64,000 nt of DNA from Prevotella sp. (GTDB lineage: Bacteria; Bacteroidota; Bacteroidia; Bacteroidales; Bacteroidaceae). The notes beneath the pieces are model-generated. The model did no database searches. It saw only the letters and a program-made list of their open reading frames with translations, and was not told the origin of the DNA. Numbering within the stretch: position 1 is the stretch's first letter; each line of letters starts with the position of its first letter. Shown piece after piece: positions 10,310 through 16,292 of this stretch. The position numbers and the translations under genes were made by a program. Location: assembly GCA_017458125.1 (NCBI GenBank), contig JAFTGB010000041.1, positions 1 to 64,000 on the forward strand, written 5' to 3'.

Positions 10310-11065
10310 TCAGACCAAGCCGTAGTTGGTGGCAAGTGACAGGGCTTCTGTGATGTTCTTTACGTTGAGTTTCTCGAAAATCTGGCGGCGATAGAATTTC
10401 ACAGTGTCAACAGAATGGAACATTTTCTCGGCAATCTCCTTCATCGTGAAGCCTTGGGCCGAGAGTGTCAGAATCTGTTTTTCTTTAGGCTTCAAAGTGA
10501 TGGTCTCACGGTTCTTCCAACGATGACCCTCCAAAGAGTACTCACGCTTCTCTCCAGTAAGGAATTGAATGAACTCAATATGTCCTGCCTCTTTATGTGG
10601 TGAGAGCGAAACGGTACAGAGGGCAAGCCACACTCTTCCATTGGTGGTCATGGCAAGGGGGGTGATCTTGTGGTTGACGAGCAACAGGCGGTTGCCGTGG
10701 GCAATGTGGAAGTCGTAGGACATCATGCATTGGCGGCGGTTTTCCTTAGGCTCGTCATAAAAGGCACGGAAACCGGAGCGATTCAGTTCAGTAAGCATCG
10801 GCACCTCGTCCTCGGGCACATGGCTCAGGTAGAAGCCATAGCCCATCTGACGCACCTCGTCGGCAGTATGGCCGCAGAGGAAGAGCGGATTGTCCGACAC
10901 ATAGAGGAAATCCTTGCGGAAGTAGTCGATGATGTAGATGCTCTGGTAGGTGGTCTGTGCGAATGCCTGCGCCGCCTCCACATAAGGCTGCGCCCGCTGG
11001 TAGTCGGCATCGGTGATGCCCTCCACGCGGTTCTCGTACATAAAGAAATCGTCTATCTGTGCCAT
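10310..11065 (-). CDS. LuxR-family transcriptional regulator with N-terminal PAS-like sensor region
   Basis: 251 residues. The C-terminus (about 188-251) is a typical LuxR HTH: LKPKEKQILTLSAQGFTMKE, then a recognition helix SVDTVKFYRRQIFEKL. Residues 35-150 resemble a PAS-like fold (SIYIIDYFRKDFLYVSDNPLF, GYGFYLSHVPEDEVPML). No receiver domain or membrane segment is present, so it probably senses a cytoplasmic signal. A good -7 box lies 23 nt upstream of the ATG. It is divergent from the peptide-modification operon that begins at 11442. Confidence 0.8.
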   Translation of the reverse strand: MAQIDDFFMYENRVEGITDADYQRAQPYVEAAQAFAQTTYQSIYIIDYFRKDFLYVSDNPLFLCGHTADEVRQMGYGFYLSHVPEDEVPMLTELNRSGFRAFYDEPKENRRQCMMSYDFHIAHGNRLLLVNHKITPLAMTTNGRVWLALCTVSLSPHKEAGHIEFIQFLTGEKREYSLEGHRWKNRETITLKPKEKQILTLSAQGFTMKEIAEKMFHSVDTVKFYRRQIFEKLNVKNITEALSLATNYGLV

Positions 11066-11393: not shown

Positions 11394-11401
11394 TAACTTT
11401 G
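11394..11401 (+). promoter_or_regulatory. Putative -7 box of the peptide-modification operon
   Basis: TAACTTTG, a perfect TAnnTTTG match. A TTTC lies upstream at 11373-11376 (17-bp spacer). Transcription would start near 11407, giving a leader of about 35 nt before the precursor ATG at 11442. Confidence 0.5.
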
Positions 11402-11441: not shown

Positions 11442-11552
11442 ATGAGTAAGAATCCATTTGCAATCAGAAAGTCGCCAGTGAACAAGGCTACAGTTGAGAC
11501 ATCTACGGGTGTTCGCGTGAGAAGTGGGTGTGATATGTTTGTCGTCTGTTAA
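11442..11552 (+). CDS. Candidate RiPP precursor peptide (36 aa)
   Basis: ATG at 11442, TAA at 11550-11552, 36 codons. The N-terminus (MSKNPFAIRKSPVNKATVE) is polar and basic like a leader. The C-terminus reads RVRSGCDMFVVC, with the only two cysteines at residues 30 and 36 (C-x5-C) and the last residue Cys. It is the first gene after a good promoter and sits 25 nt before a gene set that includes a radical SAM/SPASM enzyme with a leader-binding-type N-terminus and an exporter. That context is the main argument for its being a modified-peptide precursor. No known precursor family can be matched by eye. A chance short ORF is the alternative. Confidence 0.65.
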   Translation: MSKNPFAIRKSPVNKATVETSTGVRVRSGCDMFVVC

Positions 11553-11577
11553 GCTTAGAAAACCAGACACCGTAAAG

Positions 11578-12963
11578 ATGAGGTTTGTCCAGCTGTACAA
11601 CGACAGCTTGCGTGAGCAGTCAGGCCTTCAGGCTCCTTCCGACCTGAAGGCCTGTCTGGTTTTAGGTGCCAAGCTAAGGCCCGACTATACGCTGACACCT
11701 ATTCTGCAACTGCGGGTGAGGCTGGTCAGCATCCTGGCCCGCACTTATCCTGATTGGCTCTTCTACATCTCTGGATGCAGGGCGGACACCTGCGTCATCT
11801 ACCGCACGCTGGTGGAACAATACCACATTCCCGAAGAACGGTTCGTGATAGACTCATGTGGCTATAACACCTTCCGCTCGATACGGAACATGAAGGATTA
11901 TTATGGCCAGAAGCGCTTCTACGTGCTGACCAGCAGTTTCCACATCGTGCGGGCGCTGCGGGTGGCCGGATGGCTGGGACTGGAGGCCTGGGGTATAGAC
12001 ATCAGTGCCTACGAGCAAGTGAAAACCAATCACTACTATTGGCGCGAGCGGCTGGCTACGGTGAAATCGCTGTTGTCGGTCATTATAGCCAGGATGCATA
12101 TCGACTACATGGCACGGCGACTCATACCGAAAGGGAATGAGTGGTACTTGCGCTACAAGCAGAATCGGGCCGAAGCACGTAACGGACTTTTGATGCAGCG
12201 GATGATGGCCAACGTGGATGAAACGGTGCCTCTGACAGAATATTTCTTCGTGCAGATGATGGCTGCGGGAGTCCGCACCGGCTATACACAGACGATGGGC
12301 GAAGAGCGACTCTTGGTCATGCTAGACCGCGTGGACTGCACCACCGTCATGGAAAACGCGCTGGCATTGGCGCTGTGCTATAAAAACGGACACGCCACGC
12401 TGGAGCACCTAAAAGACTACTACCGGCGAATGCATTATCTGGACGGCATTGTCGCATACGCCACCCGCAACCATTATTTCACCTGGATCATGCAGTCGGC
12501 CATCAGTGAGGGTTTCGTGGAACGTATCGGCCCCGCCGAGCCAGCCTTTCCCTTCACGGGACTGGTAGATATGCAACCGTCGTATATGACCGCCAACCGT
12601 CACCTATATCAAGACTTCGGGCTGGCAGACGATGAAACCTTCAGGGTCATCAGTCAGCGTGAACAGCAGGGGGTGCGATTCACCTATGTCCCGCGTGAAC
12701 TGCTCAATATGCCGCAAGAGTCTGAGTTGGGTGTCATCCGTGATGGTGACGTGCTGGCAGTGGTCTGCCACCAGCACAGTTGGGCGCACGGGCTCGAAAT
12801 CAAGCACCTGTTGATGGCGAAGTGGCAGCAGGGGCGCTTGTTCTTCTATCATGTAGGAGCCGGCGAGAAGGGACTGAGCCCAGTGGATGCCTTCACCTAT
12901 ATGAAAGACAAGTTCACCATGATAGGCGTGGCGGTTTACAGATTGAAGTATTTAAAAGATTGA
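11578..12963 (+). CDS. SanA-like DUF218 domain fused to DUF1460 (NlpC/P60-like amidase) domain
   Basis: I choose ATG 11578 (MRFVQLYND), 461 aa, because the frame upstream overlaps the precursor gene. Residues 20-170 match the SanA/YdcF (DUF218) pattern: CLVLGAKLRPDYTLTPILQL, a SGCRAD segment, NTFRSIRNMKDYYG, VLTSSFHIVRAL, and a YYWRERLATVKSLL end. Residues about 215-461 match DUF1460, a cysteine amidase family: VDCTTVMENALALAL with the likely catalytic Cys254, VPRELL, GDVLAVV, GLEIKH with His410 and FFYHVG with His425. No signal peptide or membrane segment is evident. In this operon a Cys-His hydrolase could cut the leader or act on the modified peptide; that is inference. I know of no described protein with this domain pair. 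Confidence 0.75.
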   Translation: MRFVQLYNDSLREQSGLQAPSDLKACLVLGAKLRPDYTLTPILQLRVRLVSILARTYPDWLFYISGCRADTCVIYRTLVEQYHIPEERFVIDSCGYNTFRSIRNMKDYYGQKRFYVLTSSFHIVRALRVAGWLGLEAWGIDISAYEQVKTNHYYWRERLATVKSLLSVIIARMHIDYMARRLIPKGNEWYLRYKQNRAEARNGLLMQRMMANVDETVPLTEYFFVQMMAAGVRTGYTQTMGEERLLVMLDRVDCTTVMENALALALCYKNGHATLEHLKDYYRRMHYLDGIVAYATRNHYFTWIMQSAISEGFVERIGPAEPAFPFTGLVDMQPSYMTANRHLYQDFGLADDETFRVISQREQQGVRFTYVPRELLNMPQESELGVIRDGDVLAVVCHQHSWAHGLEIKHLLMAKWQQGRLFFYHVGAGEKGLSPVDAFTYMKDKFTMIGVAVYRLKYLKD

Positions 12964-12967
12964 AGAT

Positions 12968-14476
12968 ATGACACAGTTTGTTCGTCCGCTATTTACTTGT
13001 GGTGCCTACAACCCTCAGGCGCAGCGTGCCGTCATGTATAACACGGCCAACGCCACCTGCTACACCTTCGACGGTCTGTCTGCCCTGCTGGTGAGCGAGC
13101 TGTTAGCGGTAAAGAGAGAAACTCCGATTAATACGACGCATCTCGCAGAGGTAACGGGGGTAGCCGCCGAACAGGTTGAGGCGTTCTGCCGTGAGCAGCT
13201 GATGCCTGTCGGACTGGTACACGACCGCGTGTTCAGCGACGACGATTGGCAACGGTACCGACAGAAGAATCCGCCCTGCTTGCGTGCTACGGGCTATGAG
13301 CCTCAGCGCGACTATATGGACAGTCTGCCCAAGGACGAACAGGTAAACCTGGTGCTGGAACTGACCTACGCCTGCAGCGAGCGTTGTCTGCATTGCTTTA
13401 ACGAAGGTGCTGCCCGTGGCGACCTGCACGAGGAGAACCGGCTAAGCAGGGGCATGCTGAACCTCGCGGACTATCAGCGGATCATCGACGAAGCGGCGGC
13501 GTTGGGAATACCTGAGGTGACCCTCACCGGCGGTGACCCGTTCTGCCATCCCGACTGCTGGGCTATTCTCGACTATCTGCACGAGCGTAACATCGCAGTC
13601 AACCTTCAGACCAATGCCCTCGCACTGAACAGCCGTGAGAAGATACGCCGTATAGCCCGCATGGGACTGAAGCAGCTGAACGTCTCGATTTACAGTGCCG
13701 ATGCTGCCGTACACGACCGGATAACGCGCCGTCAGGGGTCGTGGGAACAGTCGGTGCATGTGCTGAAGGAGCTGGCGTTATGGCCAGTGCCGCTGAGCAT
13801 CAAGACCCCTGTATTCAGGTTGAACTCCCGTACCTATTATAGCATCCGTCATCTGGCCCGTGAACTGGGTGCCGAGACGGATATTTCATGTATGTTGATG
13901 CCGGGTGCCGACGGTGATGTGTCGGTTATCGAGCATCTGCAAACCCGGCCCGAGGCCCTGCGCCTGATACTGAACGACCCGATGGTCCGAGGCTGTGTGC
14001 GCACCGACGGCAAGGCTGACGGCTACGATATCGGACAGCGGCGGGGTATGCCTTGCAGTGCCAATCAGAATATCATCGTTTCGCCCACAGGCATTGCCAG
14101 GTGTTGCACCAATCTGAACATCAGCTACGGCCAGCTGCCCCATACGCCGCTAAGAAATATCATACTGAGCCCGAAGCGCATGCAGCTGTTGCAGGGTGAT
14201 CAGAGAAAGATGTTCCCCACATGTGGCCGGTATGACTATTGCCGGTATTGTCCCTTGCCGTGTTTCGCTGGCGAAAGACTGGAACAGGCGGAGGATGGCA
14301 CTTGGGTGCTTCATGAGATAAAGGGTGATGCCTGTCTGATAGCAAAAACGCGCATGGAGGTGAGTCGCCAGATAGGGCAGGGTACCGACCCGCTTGGGGG
14401 AAAGAGCATTGAAGCATGCCTGACAGCCCTGCCTGAAGAAGAAGTTCCTGTGTTCTGCAAAAAAATCAGAAAATGA
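12968..14476 (+). CDS. Radical SAM/SPASM peptide-modifying enzyme with PqqD-like N-terminal domain
   Basis: 502 aa, starting 4 nt after the preceding stop. Residues about 15-85 have the pattern of a PqqD-like RiPP recognition element (YTFDGLSALLVSELLAVKRE, then VEAFCREQLMPVGLV). The radical SAM core begins near residue 128 with C136-x3-C140-x2-C143 (ACSERCLHC) and continues with TLTGGDPFCHPD (the SAM-binding GGD) and LNVSIYSA. The C-terminal part carries SPASM-type cysteines: C363, C379, C380, C419, C425, C428, C432, C456. Such enzymes install carbon-carbon, thioether or epimerised residues in short peptides. The likely substrate is the 36-aa peptide at 11442. Which bond is made cannot be read from the sequence. 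Confidence 0.85.
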   Translation: MTQFVRPLFTCGAYNPQAQRAVMYNTANATCYTFDGLSALLVSELLAVKRETPINTTHLAEVTGVAAEQVEAFCREQLMPVGLVHDRVFSDDDWQRYRQKNPPCLRATGYEPQRDYMDSLPKDEQVNLVLELTYACSERCLHCFNEGAARGDLHEENRLSRGMLNLADYQRIIDEAAALGIPEVTLTGGDPFCHPDCWAILDYLHERNIAVNLQTNALALNSREKIRRIARMGLKQLNVSIYSADAAVHDRITRRQGSWEQSVHVLKELALWPVPLSIKTPVFRLNSRTYYSIRHLARELGAETDISCMLMPGADGDVSVIEHLQTRPEALRLILNDPMVRGCVRTDGKADGYDIGQRRGMPCSANQNIIVSPTGIARCCTNLNISYGQLPHTPLRNIILSPKRMQLLQGDQRKMFPTCGRYDYCRYCPLPCFAGERLEQAEDGTWVLHEIKGDACLIAKTRMEVSRQIGQGTDPLGGKSIEACLTALPEEEVPVFCKKIRK

Positions 14477-16236
14477 TGCAGCGTAATGAATTTGTCTTGA
14501 AGAATATGTTCGGGTCGTTCTTTCTGGCGACCGTCGTATCGTCTCTGATGGGACAGTTAGGAGGTATCACCGACTCTATCCTGGTGGGGCAGTTGGTGTC
14601 GCCTGATGCCTTGTCGGCAGTCCGTGTCTGGCAACCTGTGGCCGGCATCATGTTTATCATCATCGGCTTGATGAGTGCAGGTGCCGGCTTCCTGAGTGCA
14701 CGCGGCATTGGCGGACAGAACTATGACAAAGTGAACCGCGTGTTCAATCATCATCTCTATTACGTCATAGCCTCAACCGTGCTGCTGATAGCCCTGATAT
14801 TTCCTTTCCTCGACACTGTGGCTCCGCTGCTTACTACAGACGAGCGGCTGCTGCCCATGCTCAAGCCTTATATACATGCCGACCTGCTGTGTATCTTCGT
14901 GGCAGCAGTGTGTGGCGTTCCGCTGTCTTACATCATCGCGAACGGCAACCCGCAGCTCATTACGCGACGCATCATCATCTCGCAGGTGCTCAATGCCGCT
15001 CTCGACGTGCTGCTGTGCGGTGTGCTTGATATGGGACTGCCCGGTGCCTCATACGCTACGGCATTCAGCAATCTGCTGGCCTTCACATCGCTGTTTGACT
15101 ATATGCGCAAGAACAGCAGCATCTTCCACCTGCAGTCTCCGCTGAAGGTGTGTTCCATAAAGCAGTACCGCGAGTGCTTCGTCATCGGCATGCCCATGCT
15201 TCTGACAGCACTGTTAGGGCCTGTCATCTCATACCTGATGAACTCATTGGTGGTAGACAAACTGGGGGCAGACGGTATGTATACCTTTACCATCTACTTC
15301 CAGATTAACAATATCTGTATGCTGGTATTAGCCGGTACGAATGCGGCTATTATCAATATCGGGGGCATACTGACGGGCGAGGAAGACTACGACAGTTTCC
15401 GTTTGCTCATGCGCAGGATATTCCGCATACTGACAGTAACGATGGTGGTGGTCAGTGTACTGGTATTCCTCTTTCCCGACTTGCTGGCCCGGCTCTACGG
15501 TGCCAGTGGCAGTCTGGCAGACCAGTGCCGCACGCCGTTTCGGCTGATGACGCTGGGCTTTCTGCCCAACGCAATAGCCGCAACGCTGATGGTGACCTAT
15601 TTTGTGCAGGGACATCACAGGCTCTGCCGGTGGCTAAAGATTGTTACCAATCTGGTGTCCATTCTGATGATTGTACTGATGGCCGTCTACACCCCTCAAC
15701 TCATCTGGTACATCCTGCCTGCCTCCTCCTGGCTGGTGCTGCTGGTGATGGCGGTGATGGCCTACGTGGTACACCGCAGGAACCCGTTGCTCAGCTGGCC
15801 CACGCTGCAGAGCACAGTGCCCTCCGACCCCGCTGTCACCTTCTCGGTGCCTTATACCGCCGAGGGGGTACAGCAGTTTCTCGCTAATGTCCAGCCGTTT
15901 GTAGGAGCCTGTGAACTGGAGGACGGCATGGCGGTGGAGATTGCTTTGGAGGAACTGCTCAATGAAATCGTGGAAAGCAACACCGAACGTAAGGAGAGCG
16001 ACACCTTTGATGTGAGAATCATCGACAAGGAAAATGAATTCATGGTGGTACTGAAGAGCAAGGGCCCCCTGCGGAATCCAATTTACAAATATACCGACAG
16101 CGAGTTGGAGGACATCGATGTCAGCAACCTGCGGCGTGCCATATTGACACGACTGTGCAAGAACATCAACCACAAGTACATGAACGGCATCAACTGCATC
16201 TATCTGAATTACAGACACCAGCATTCGGACTGCTGA
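14473..16236 (+). CDS. MATE-family exporter with C-terminal RsbW/HATPase-like domain
   Basis: 587 aa; its ATG overlaps the radical SAM stop (ATGA), so the genes are coupled. Residues 1 to about 440 form a MATE transporter with about 12 membrane segments (GGITDSILVGQLVSPDALSA, LPGASYATAFSNLLAF). After the last membrane segment, residues about 455-580 are soluble and resemble an anti-sigma-factor-type GHKL ATPase: VEIALEELLNEIVE has the N-box look, followed by VRIIDKENEFMVVLKSKGP. MATE proteins are cation-coupled efflux pumps of about 450 aa and do not normally carry this domain. It probably exports the mature peptide. What the extra domain does is unknown. Confidence 0.8.
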   Translation: MMQRNEFVLKNMFGSFFLATVVSSLMGQLGGITDSILVGQLVSPDALSAVRVWQPVAGIMFIIIGLMSAGAGFLSARGIGGQNYDKVNRVFNHHLYYVIASTVLLIALIFPFLDTVAPLLTTDERLLPMLKPYIHADLLCIFVAAVCGVPLSYIIANGNPQLITRRIIISQVLNAALDVLLCGVLDMGLPGASYATAFSNLLAFTSLFDYMRKNSSIFHLQSPLKVCSIKQYRECFVIGMPMLLTALLGPVISYLMNSLVVDKLGADGMYTFTIYFQINNICMLVLAGTNAAIINIGGILTGEEDYDSFRLLMRRIFRILTVTMVVVSVLVFLFPDLLARLYGASGSLADQCRTPFRLMTLGFLPNAIAATLMVTYFVQGHHRLCRWLKIVTNLVSILMIVLMAVYTPQLIWYILPASSWLVLLVMAVMAYVVHRRNPLLSWPTLQSTVPSDPAVTFSVPYTAEGVQQFLANVQPFVGACELEDGMAVEIALEELLNEIVESNTERKESDTFDVRIIDKENEFMVVLKSKGPLRNPIYKYTDSELEDIDVSNLRRAILTRLCKNINHKYMNGINCIYLNYRHQHSDC

Positions 16237-16260: not shown

Positions 16261-16292
16261 AGGAGGGCAGTTCAAAAAAGAACTGTCCTCCT
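16261..16292. terminator. Bidirectional hairpin terminator between MATE exporter and rubrerythrin
   Basis: AGGAGGGCAGTTC pairs with GAACTGTCCTCCT (13 bp, one G-T) across a 6-nt A loop. It lies 25 nt after the exporter stop and 40 nt after the convergent rubrerythrin stop, with A/T runs on both sides. Confidence 0.7.

Follow-up and report, generated by a model that had tools for sequence, protein, structure and literature searches.

A putative radical SAM peptide-maturation operon with a conserved leader family in Prevotella

Several described pathways for ribosomally synthesized and post-translationally modified peptides (RiPPs) employ a radical S-adenosylmethionine (SAM) enzyme. Such an enzyme is encoded beside a short Cys-containing precursor in sactipeptide and ranthipeptide pathways, the tryglysin (wgk) operon of streptococci adds an exporter, and radical SAM RiPP clusters are also known from Bacteroidales (PMC10352776). 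Here, we describe a four-gene operon of Prevotella sp. on positions 1 to 64,000 of contig JAFTGB010000041.1 (assembly GCA_017458125.1), a stretch of 64,000 nt referred to as the window. It encodes a short peptide, a fusion of a DUF218/SanA-type and an AmiA-like (DUF1460) domain, a radical SAM protein and a MATE protein. An earlier reading made from the letters alone (the sequence-only reading) proposed that the four genes make, trim and export one short modified peptide. Based on the comparisons given below, we consider it fairly likely that the operon constitutes a RiPP pathway, in which the radical SAM enzyme would modify a Cys-containing core, the fusion would process the peptide and the MATE protein would export it. 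The locus is best read as a precursor family and gene set that are new but belong to a known kind, the radical-SAM RiPPs.

The sequence-only reading made its proposal depend on the short open reading frame (ORF) being conserved at the protein level, and such conservation was found. In total, 21 distinct leader peptides of 24–51 residues were collected, including that of the window. Their leader consensus is NPFAIRKSPVxIIxAQALxLDDYV, of which the window shares NPFAIRKSPV, and their tails are variable and contain Cys. For 18 non-window peptides (153 pairs), the mean pairwise identity was 0.83 in the 24-residue leader and 0.43 in the core, and leader identity exceeded tail identity in 140 of the 153 pairs. 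This comparison drops two of the 20 non-window peptides, the 24-residue peptide of L087, which ends before DDY, and that of L103, which is cut by a contig end (labels beginning with L or G are our handles for loci and genomes). Cys is present in all 18 cores and in none of the leaders; the core of the window peptide contains Cys as well. In the NPFAIRKSPV motif, the window differs from its relatives almost only by synonymous changes, with proportions of synonymous (pS) and non-synonymous (pN) differences of 0.55 and 0.022. Comparison with loci fetched through the enzymes yielded 0.57 and 0.016. As that motif served to find the peptides, these pN values are lower bounds. The 15 leader codons outside the search motif yielded a pS of 0.29 and a pN of 0.12 among relatives (55 pairs, 11 peptides). 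The short ORF is therefore a protein-coding gene conserved among relatives.

In some genomes, two or three precursor genes encode peptides that differ in their tails. SGCDMFVVC, the tail of the window peptide, is similar to SGCVKSGVC in L071, L072, L093 and L099, and may be compared with ACAYQSSCP of the sister loci described below. In G281, a member of the same genus, the same enzymes are preceded by MEKKNNPFAIRKSPASIITAQALNLDDYVQRILDDDDRVSICATTNKK. The short ORF matched no Pfam or NCBIfam model, and four relatives' precursors and a sister peptide gave no meaningful NCBIfam match (one PrpR chance match, E 0.24).

The link between leader gene and enzymes was surveyed in two ways. A scan of 398 genomes of the genus yielded a radical SAM match (E ≤ 1e-30) in 28, comprising nine complete close loci (window included), five fragmentary close loci, 13 distant loci and one distant fragment. 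A leader ORF lies on the same stretch as the radical SAM gene in 8/9 complete close loci, and thus enzymes without the short ORF, which would have contradicted the sequence-only reading, were not the rule. The leader-pattern scan of genome_contigs covered 84,980 species and returned 27 stretches, of which 17 were judged genuine and 10 chance. The latter belong to other phyla or have no motif-starting short ORF beside genes of the set; two of them (L095, L109) show no NPF.IRKSP frame at all. All 17 genuine stretches are labelled Prevotella, Prevotellaceae or Bacteroidales. Another gene or fragment of the set, the DUF6169-like gene described below included, was found in 16 of them (fusion in 11, radical SAM gene or part in 9); the exception, L108, corresponds to the G281 locus, with the operon immediately outside the stretch. 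At least eight of the 17 loci also occur in the genus scan, so that the two counts overlap. NPF.IRKSP was present in 8/15 close loci fetched via the enzymes, several of which are contig fragments, and in 0/58 control loci (349 kb). One pattern match in viral contigs was judged chance. Named strains with the leader gene are Prevotella sp. tc2-28, ne3005 and MA2016 (L108), isolate names that we take to indicate a rumen origin.

The radical SAM protein of the window scored 73.6 bits with the Pfam model Radical_SAM (cut-off 29.5). The motif CxxxCxxC and the further Cys residues C363-x11-G-x4-C380, C419-x5-C425-x2-C428-x3-C432 and C456 are conserved in 10/10 close sequences. With the Pfam SPASM model (cut-off 21.5), L115 and L041 reached 22.5 and 34.8 bits, respectively, L040 stayed short of it at 17.5, and the window protein had no listed match. 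The window protein is below the cut-off of every NCBIfam model shown (best 25 of 52). Among its best family models are mycofactocin MftC, AhbD and PqqE, which would fit a peptide-derived cofactor or signal, made in the manner of pyrroloquinoline quinone or mycofactocin, instead of an antibacterial product. The scores are, however, far below the family cut-offs, and precursors of cofactor pathways are generally invariant, whereas here several precursors with differing cores per genome and an adjoining MATE exporter were observed. We thus regard a cofactor or signal as very unlikely.

The features of the operon are listed in Table 1. The layout given by the sequence-only reading proved correct: the four ORFs follow one another on the same strand, separated by +25, +4 and −4 nt, the last value being an overlap. 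Its closing terminator was confirmed as well, and none of 200 shuffles gave an equally good hairpin. The claimed promoter stands in a different form. A sigma-70 scan found no promoter at the precursor gene, but a box of Bacteroidales type is present, labelled as a −7 element after the promoter consensus of this order, and the motif recurs in relatives. Of 20 precursor genes examined, 18 have TANNTTTGC at most 120 nt upstream, against a mean of 0.2 and a maximum of 2 in 500 mononucleotide shuffles; the 20 upstream regions are related and hence not independent.

Table 1 Features of the operon and its flanks in the window
Feature	Position	Strand	Basis or remark
Bacteroidales-type −7 element TAACTTTG	11394..11401	+	41 to 48 nt 5′ of the precursor ATG
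Precursor peptide gene, 36 aa, MSKNPFAIRKSPVNKATVETSTGVRVRSGCDMFVVC	11442..11552	+	NPF[AGS]IRKSP[VA] common to 20 distinct relatives' peptides
Conserved leader motif NPFAIRKSPV	11451..11480	+	pS 0.55–0.57, pN 0.016–0.022
Putative core SGCDMFVVC (C-x5-C)	11523..11549	+	Inference
DUF218/SanA-type + AmiA-like (DUF1460) fusion, 461 aa	11578..12963	+	Pfam domains, conserved triad
Radical SAM/SPASM-type maturase, 502 aa	12968..14476	+	Pfam, Cys motifs in 10 close sequences
MATE exporter, degenerate C-terminal HATPase-like domain at 15811–16233	14473..16236	+	
Terminator hairpin, 13 bp	16261..16292	+	z −4.83

A LuxR-type regulator gene at 10310–11065 is divergently transcribed and lies 376 nt before the precursor start. 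Such a regulator was not spotted by eye beside the operons of relatives, for which no dedicated search was made. Base composition gave no signal of horizontal gain, with G + C contents of 54.9% for the operon, 48.8% upstream and 56.4% downstream.

Several observations weigh against a RiPP pathway of this kind. The sequence-only reading described the maturase as a radical SAM/SPASM protein with a PqqD-like N-terminus. The radical SAM domain and the SPASM-type Cys residues were found, but the PqqD label was not confirmed, as the N-terminal segments of seven radical SAM proteins gave no Pfam match to PqqD, and an identity as a RiPP recognition element (RRE) was not confirmed either. Four of the seven segments, all from the sister group, showed weak matches including winged-helix/helix-turn-helix families, all below cut-off. 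Comparison with three PqqD sequences by hhalign resulted in P 0.009 with a probability of 4.5% (two controls: P 0.48 and 0.87), so that a PqqD-like nature of the N-terminus is only weakly suggested. The linkage between leader and enzymes also has exceptions. The leader gene of some relatives is not accompanied by an adjacent radical SAM gene, and in four of ten leader genomes searched (of 17; genome completeness not given) no close radical SAM match was found at E ≤ 1e-20. The radical SAM gene (L115) and the leader gene of Prevotella sp. ne3005 are on separate contigs, and the 14 kb of the former contain no leader gene; the precursor, DUF6169-like, fusion and MATE genes form a module on another contig of that strain (L089). 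Among the five fragmentary close loci, the leader gene is intact in one (G480), shortened in one (G757) and absent from three, with contig ends present. The ninth complete close locus, G414, lacks the leader ORF on a contig that begins inside the fusion gene.

The window itself deviates from its relatives. In the four simplest complete relatives (G281, G731, G615, G521) the gene order is precursor, DUF6169-like, fusion, MATE and radical SAM, whereas in the window the radical SAM gene precedes the MATE gene and the DUF6169-like gene is missing. The window peptide has a second half of its own and lacks the II.AQAL.LDDYV half of nearly all relatives. A frameshift was rejected as the cause, since the missing LDDYV half is not in the other two frames. 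The window radical SAM protein forms a long branch within a 10-row clade (support 100/100), and broken copies occur in relatives (L048, L074, L079). These features could mean that the copy in the window is the remnant of a decaying or recombined operon, in which only the first leader half survives and no product is made any more. Yet none of the four ORFs is broken, the promoter motif and the terminator persist, and pN of the three enzymes (0.17–0.22) is well below pS (0.64–0.69) when compared to G281. Co-evolution would equally lead to joint divergence of enzyme and leader. We therefore hold a remnant to be quite unlikely; decay of the peptide is possible in the window, but decay is not seen in the enzymes.

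The DUF6169-like protein is conserved (172–176 residues aligned, start codon unsure) and is encoded near the precursor and before the fusion in L040 (12962–13489), L088, L089, L092, L093, L096, L102, L105, L113 and L087. Its label is weak: the score of 16.1 bits does not reach the Pfam cut-off of 27, and only 3/10 members match at all. No mention of DUF6169 was found in the open-access papers searched. In L040, L070, L072 and L089, the cluster is located between the same two housekeeping genes, which we take to be trmD- and trpS-like from their sequences, and which may mark an integration site; the window copy is located elsewhere.

The DUF218-DUF1460 fusion named by the sequence-only reading was confirmed by Pfam, with 39.9 bits for DUF218 (PF02698, cut-off 27.6) and 63.3 bits for AmiA-like (PF07313, formerly DUF1460, cut-off 27). 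The residues C254, H410 and H425 are invariant in 10/10 fusions and align to the C and H residues of 2p1g/4h4j. In the DUF218 half, T118 and H122 of a TSSFH motif are invariant; a Thr-His-Glu triad has been reported for SanA (PMC12176290). The SanA equivalog model gave only 21 of the 363 bits required by its cut-off, indicating a member of the DUF218 family and not SanA itself. By hydropathy, no signal or transmembrane segment was detected, with no 19-residue segment above 1.32 in four fusions tested, while the N-terminus of a DUF1460 paralog from the window genome resembles a signal (1.88). Because such a hydrophobic segment is lacking, the fusion is probably cytoplasmic. It matched no PHROG at E ≤ 0.01. 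At E ≤ 1e-45, it was found in the window genome only among 393 sampled genomes of the order; known carriers within the genus likewise went undetected in this sample. Among the matches listed for 201 genomes of the family, strong matches to the DUF218 half were restricted to the window and a shortened copy in G024.

In another reading, the operon is likewise a RiPP pathway, but the fusion would provide self-protection as a cytoplasmic enzyme whose targets are peptidoglycan precursors or recycled muropeptides, because the peptide would be directed against the synthesis of the cell wall. A protease encoded elsewhere would then remove the leader. Both halves of the fusion come from cell-wall families: SanA/DUF218 affects peptidoglycan synthesis in Escherichia coli (PMC12176290), and DUF1460 is described as an amidase with a Cys-His-His triad (PMC10318531). 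The fusion also occurs in leader loci whose stretch includes no radical SAM gene (L089, L096, L105), and no other candidate immunity gene was recognised in the operon. On the other hand, SanA of E. coli is reported to be periplasmic (PMC12176290), whereas the fusion has neither a signal nor a transmembrane segment by hydropathy and differs in this from the DUF1460 paralog of its own genome. We consider self-protection somewhat unlikely, yet it is the main and a serious rival to trimming; if it holds, it points to a cell-wall target. With the triad kept and a signal lacking, trimming of the leader appears to be the most likely role of the fusion. In that case the leader protease would be of a type absent by word search from the accessible text of one review of RiPP proteases (PMC10885120), in which 'NlpC' and 'amidase' occur 0 times. 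Finally, the fusion might itself be a maturase: its amidase domain, of a family acting on the muramyl-peptide bond, would exchange or form an amide bond and join the peptide modified by the radical SAM protein to a fragment of the cell wall, and the MATE protein would export the resulting peptide-muropeptide hybrid. Such a new RiPP class is in our view extremely improbable.

The sequence-only reading described the last gene as a MATE exporter with an extra ATPase-like domain. The MatE domain is clear (94.6 bits, cut-off 24.9), but the extra domain remained below the Pfam cut-off: three operon-type MATE proteins scored 13.9 (window; cut-off 27.4), 14.1 and no match with the HATPase model. Nor does this domain belong to the RiPP set specifically, since it also occurs on two MATE paralogs of the same genome. 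These paralogs (L124:145–1896 and L125:127–1902) carry a C-terminal HATPase domain that passes the cut-off (34.3 and 45.4 bits) and has the motif KDAG. In 8/8 operon-type MATE proteins aligned, KSKG replaces KDAG, which we presume to be the ATP-binding motif of GHKL ATPases. Together with the score below cut-off, this suggests that the ATP-binding motif of the operon MATE was probably lost. The C-terminal domain had no sequence match in the PDB at E ≤ 1.

A second radical SAM-peptide family was observed in Prevotella and its family (L041–L046, L080–L086, L126–L129, L131, L132). The radical SAM proteins of this sister group show 28–36% identity, and a two-Cys short peptide of type MKVDLNVSAASKVVTMAHCPREFQSTCGIAYRSS or MKEELKASKVSSVIEMNACAYQSSCPDVLVKFNQ is encoded downstream in 13/14 and 6/7 loci; the 13/14 were grouped by clustering, the 6/7 picked by eye from the ORF list. 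The peptides are of the types CP-x6-CGIxYR and ACAYQSSCP, and three tandem copies are present in L131. A similar peptide with one Cys was found in L130, and no sister peptide was found in L047, where the radical SAM match is shortened. The group with MKVDLNVSAASK...CP-x6-CGIxYR peptides resembles the window family in its homologous maturase, the same SPASM-like region and the adjoining short peptide. It differs in that the peptide lies downstream, its leader has no visible similarity to that of the window family, and no fusion or MATE homolog was found among ORFs of at least 100 aa in 14 wider loci. Since sister radical SAM genes also adjoin two-Cys peptides, the reading as a peptide maturase is strengthened.

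Taken together, the locus has a ribosomal precursor, a conserved leader with a variable core and adjoining modifying enzymes, as expected for RiPPs; in the window, it is the first leader half that is conserved. In the RiPP pathway that we favour, the 36-residue peptide would carry its recognition leader (KNPFAIRKSPV...) at the N-terminus and its Cys core (SGCDMFVVC) at the C-terminus. That leader would be bound by the radical SAM protein, possibly via the N-terminal segment of the enzyme. Radical chemistry together with SPASM-type auxiliary clusters would then modify the core, and the enzyme probably cross-links the Cys tail, thioether bonds from the cysteines being the most likely type. The DUF218-AmiA cysteine hydrolase, probably in the cytoplasm, would remove the leader or otherwise process the peptide before the MATE protein exports the finished product. 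Of the roles assigned by the sequence-only reading, precursor, maturase and exporter are thus well supported, whereas trimming we infer. The leader consensus defines a precursor family with maturase and exporter in Prevotella, which is directly testable as the three named strains carry it.

The sequence-only reading could not match the gene set to a described class, and no description was found among the matches listed in searches of open-access literature (subscription papers and supplements were outside this search). The fusion shares a homologous domain and the Cys-His-His triad with the DUF1460 AmiA amidase (PDB 2p1g, 4h4j) but is joined to DUF218, has no signal-like segment and lies within a peptide operon. 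Like sactipeptide and ranthipeptide pathways, the locus pairs a short Cys-containing precursor with a radical SAM enzyme, in which three Cys of the SAM cluster and seven others are conserved. However, the models for AlbA and StsB (window; best 25 of 52) and for AlbA, PapB and SkfB (two sister enzymes) were all far below cut-off, placing the three enzymes outside the curated maturase models (best 25 of 52, 65 and 51), and the precursors likewise matched no NCBIfam family beyond the chance match. The Cys spacing C-x5-C-x2-C-x3-C of the window also differs from C-x2-C-x5-C-x3-C, the pattern of SPASM domains. The tryglysin operon is similar in its short precursor, radical SAM enzyme and exporter with a MATE-named NCBIfam model, but has a separate RRE protein, quorum-sensing control and a different core, and the window MATE protein scored 34.6 bits against the WgkD cut-off of 510. 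The Bacteroidales clusters with double-Gly (GG) motif precursors and peptidase-containing ABC transporters (PCATs), as described in PMC10352776, agree with the window in taxonomic order and enzyme superfamily; in contrast, the window operon is devoid of a double-Gly motif and a PCAT and carries a MATE protein and the DUF218-AmiA fusion instead.

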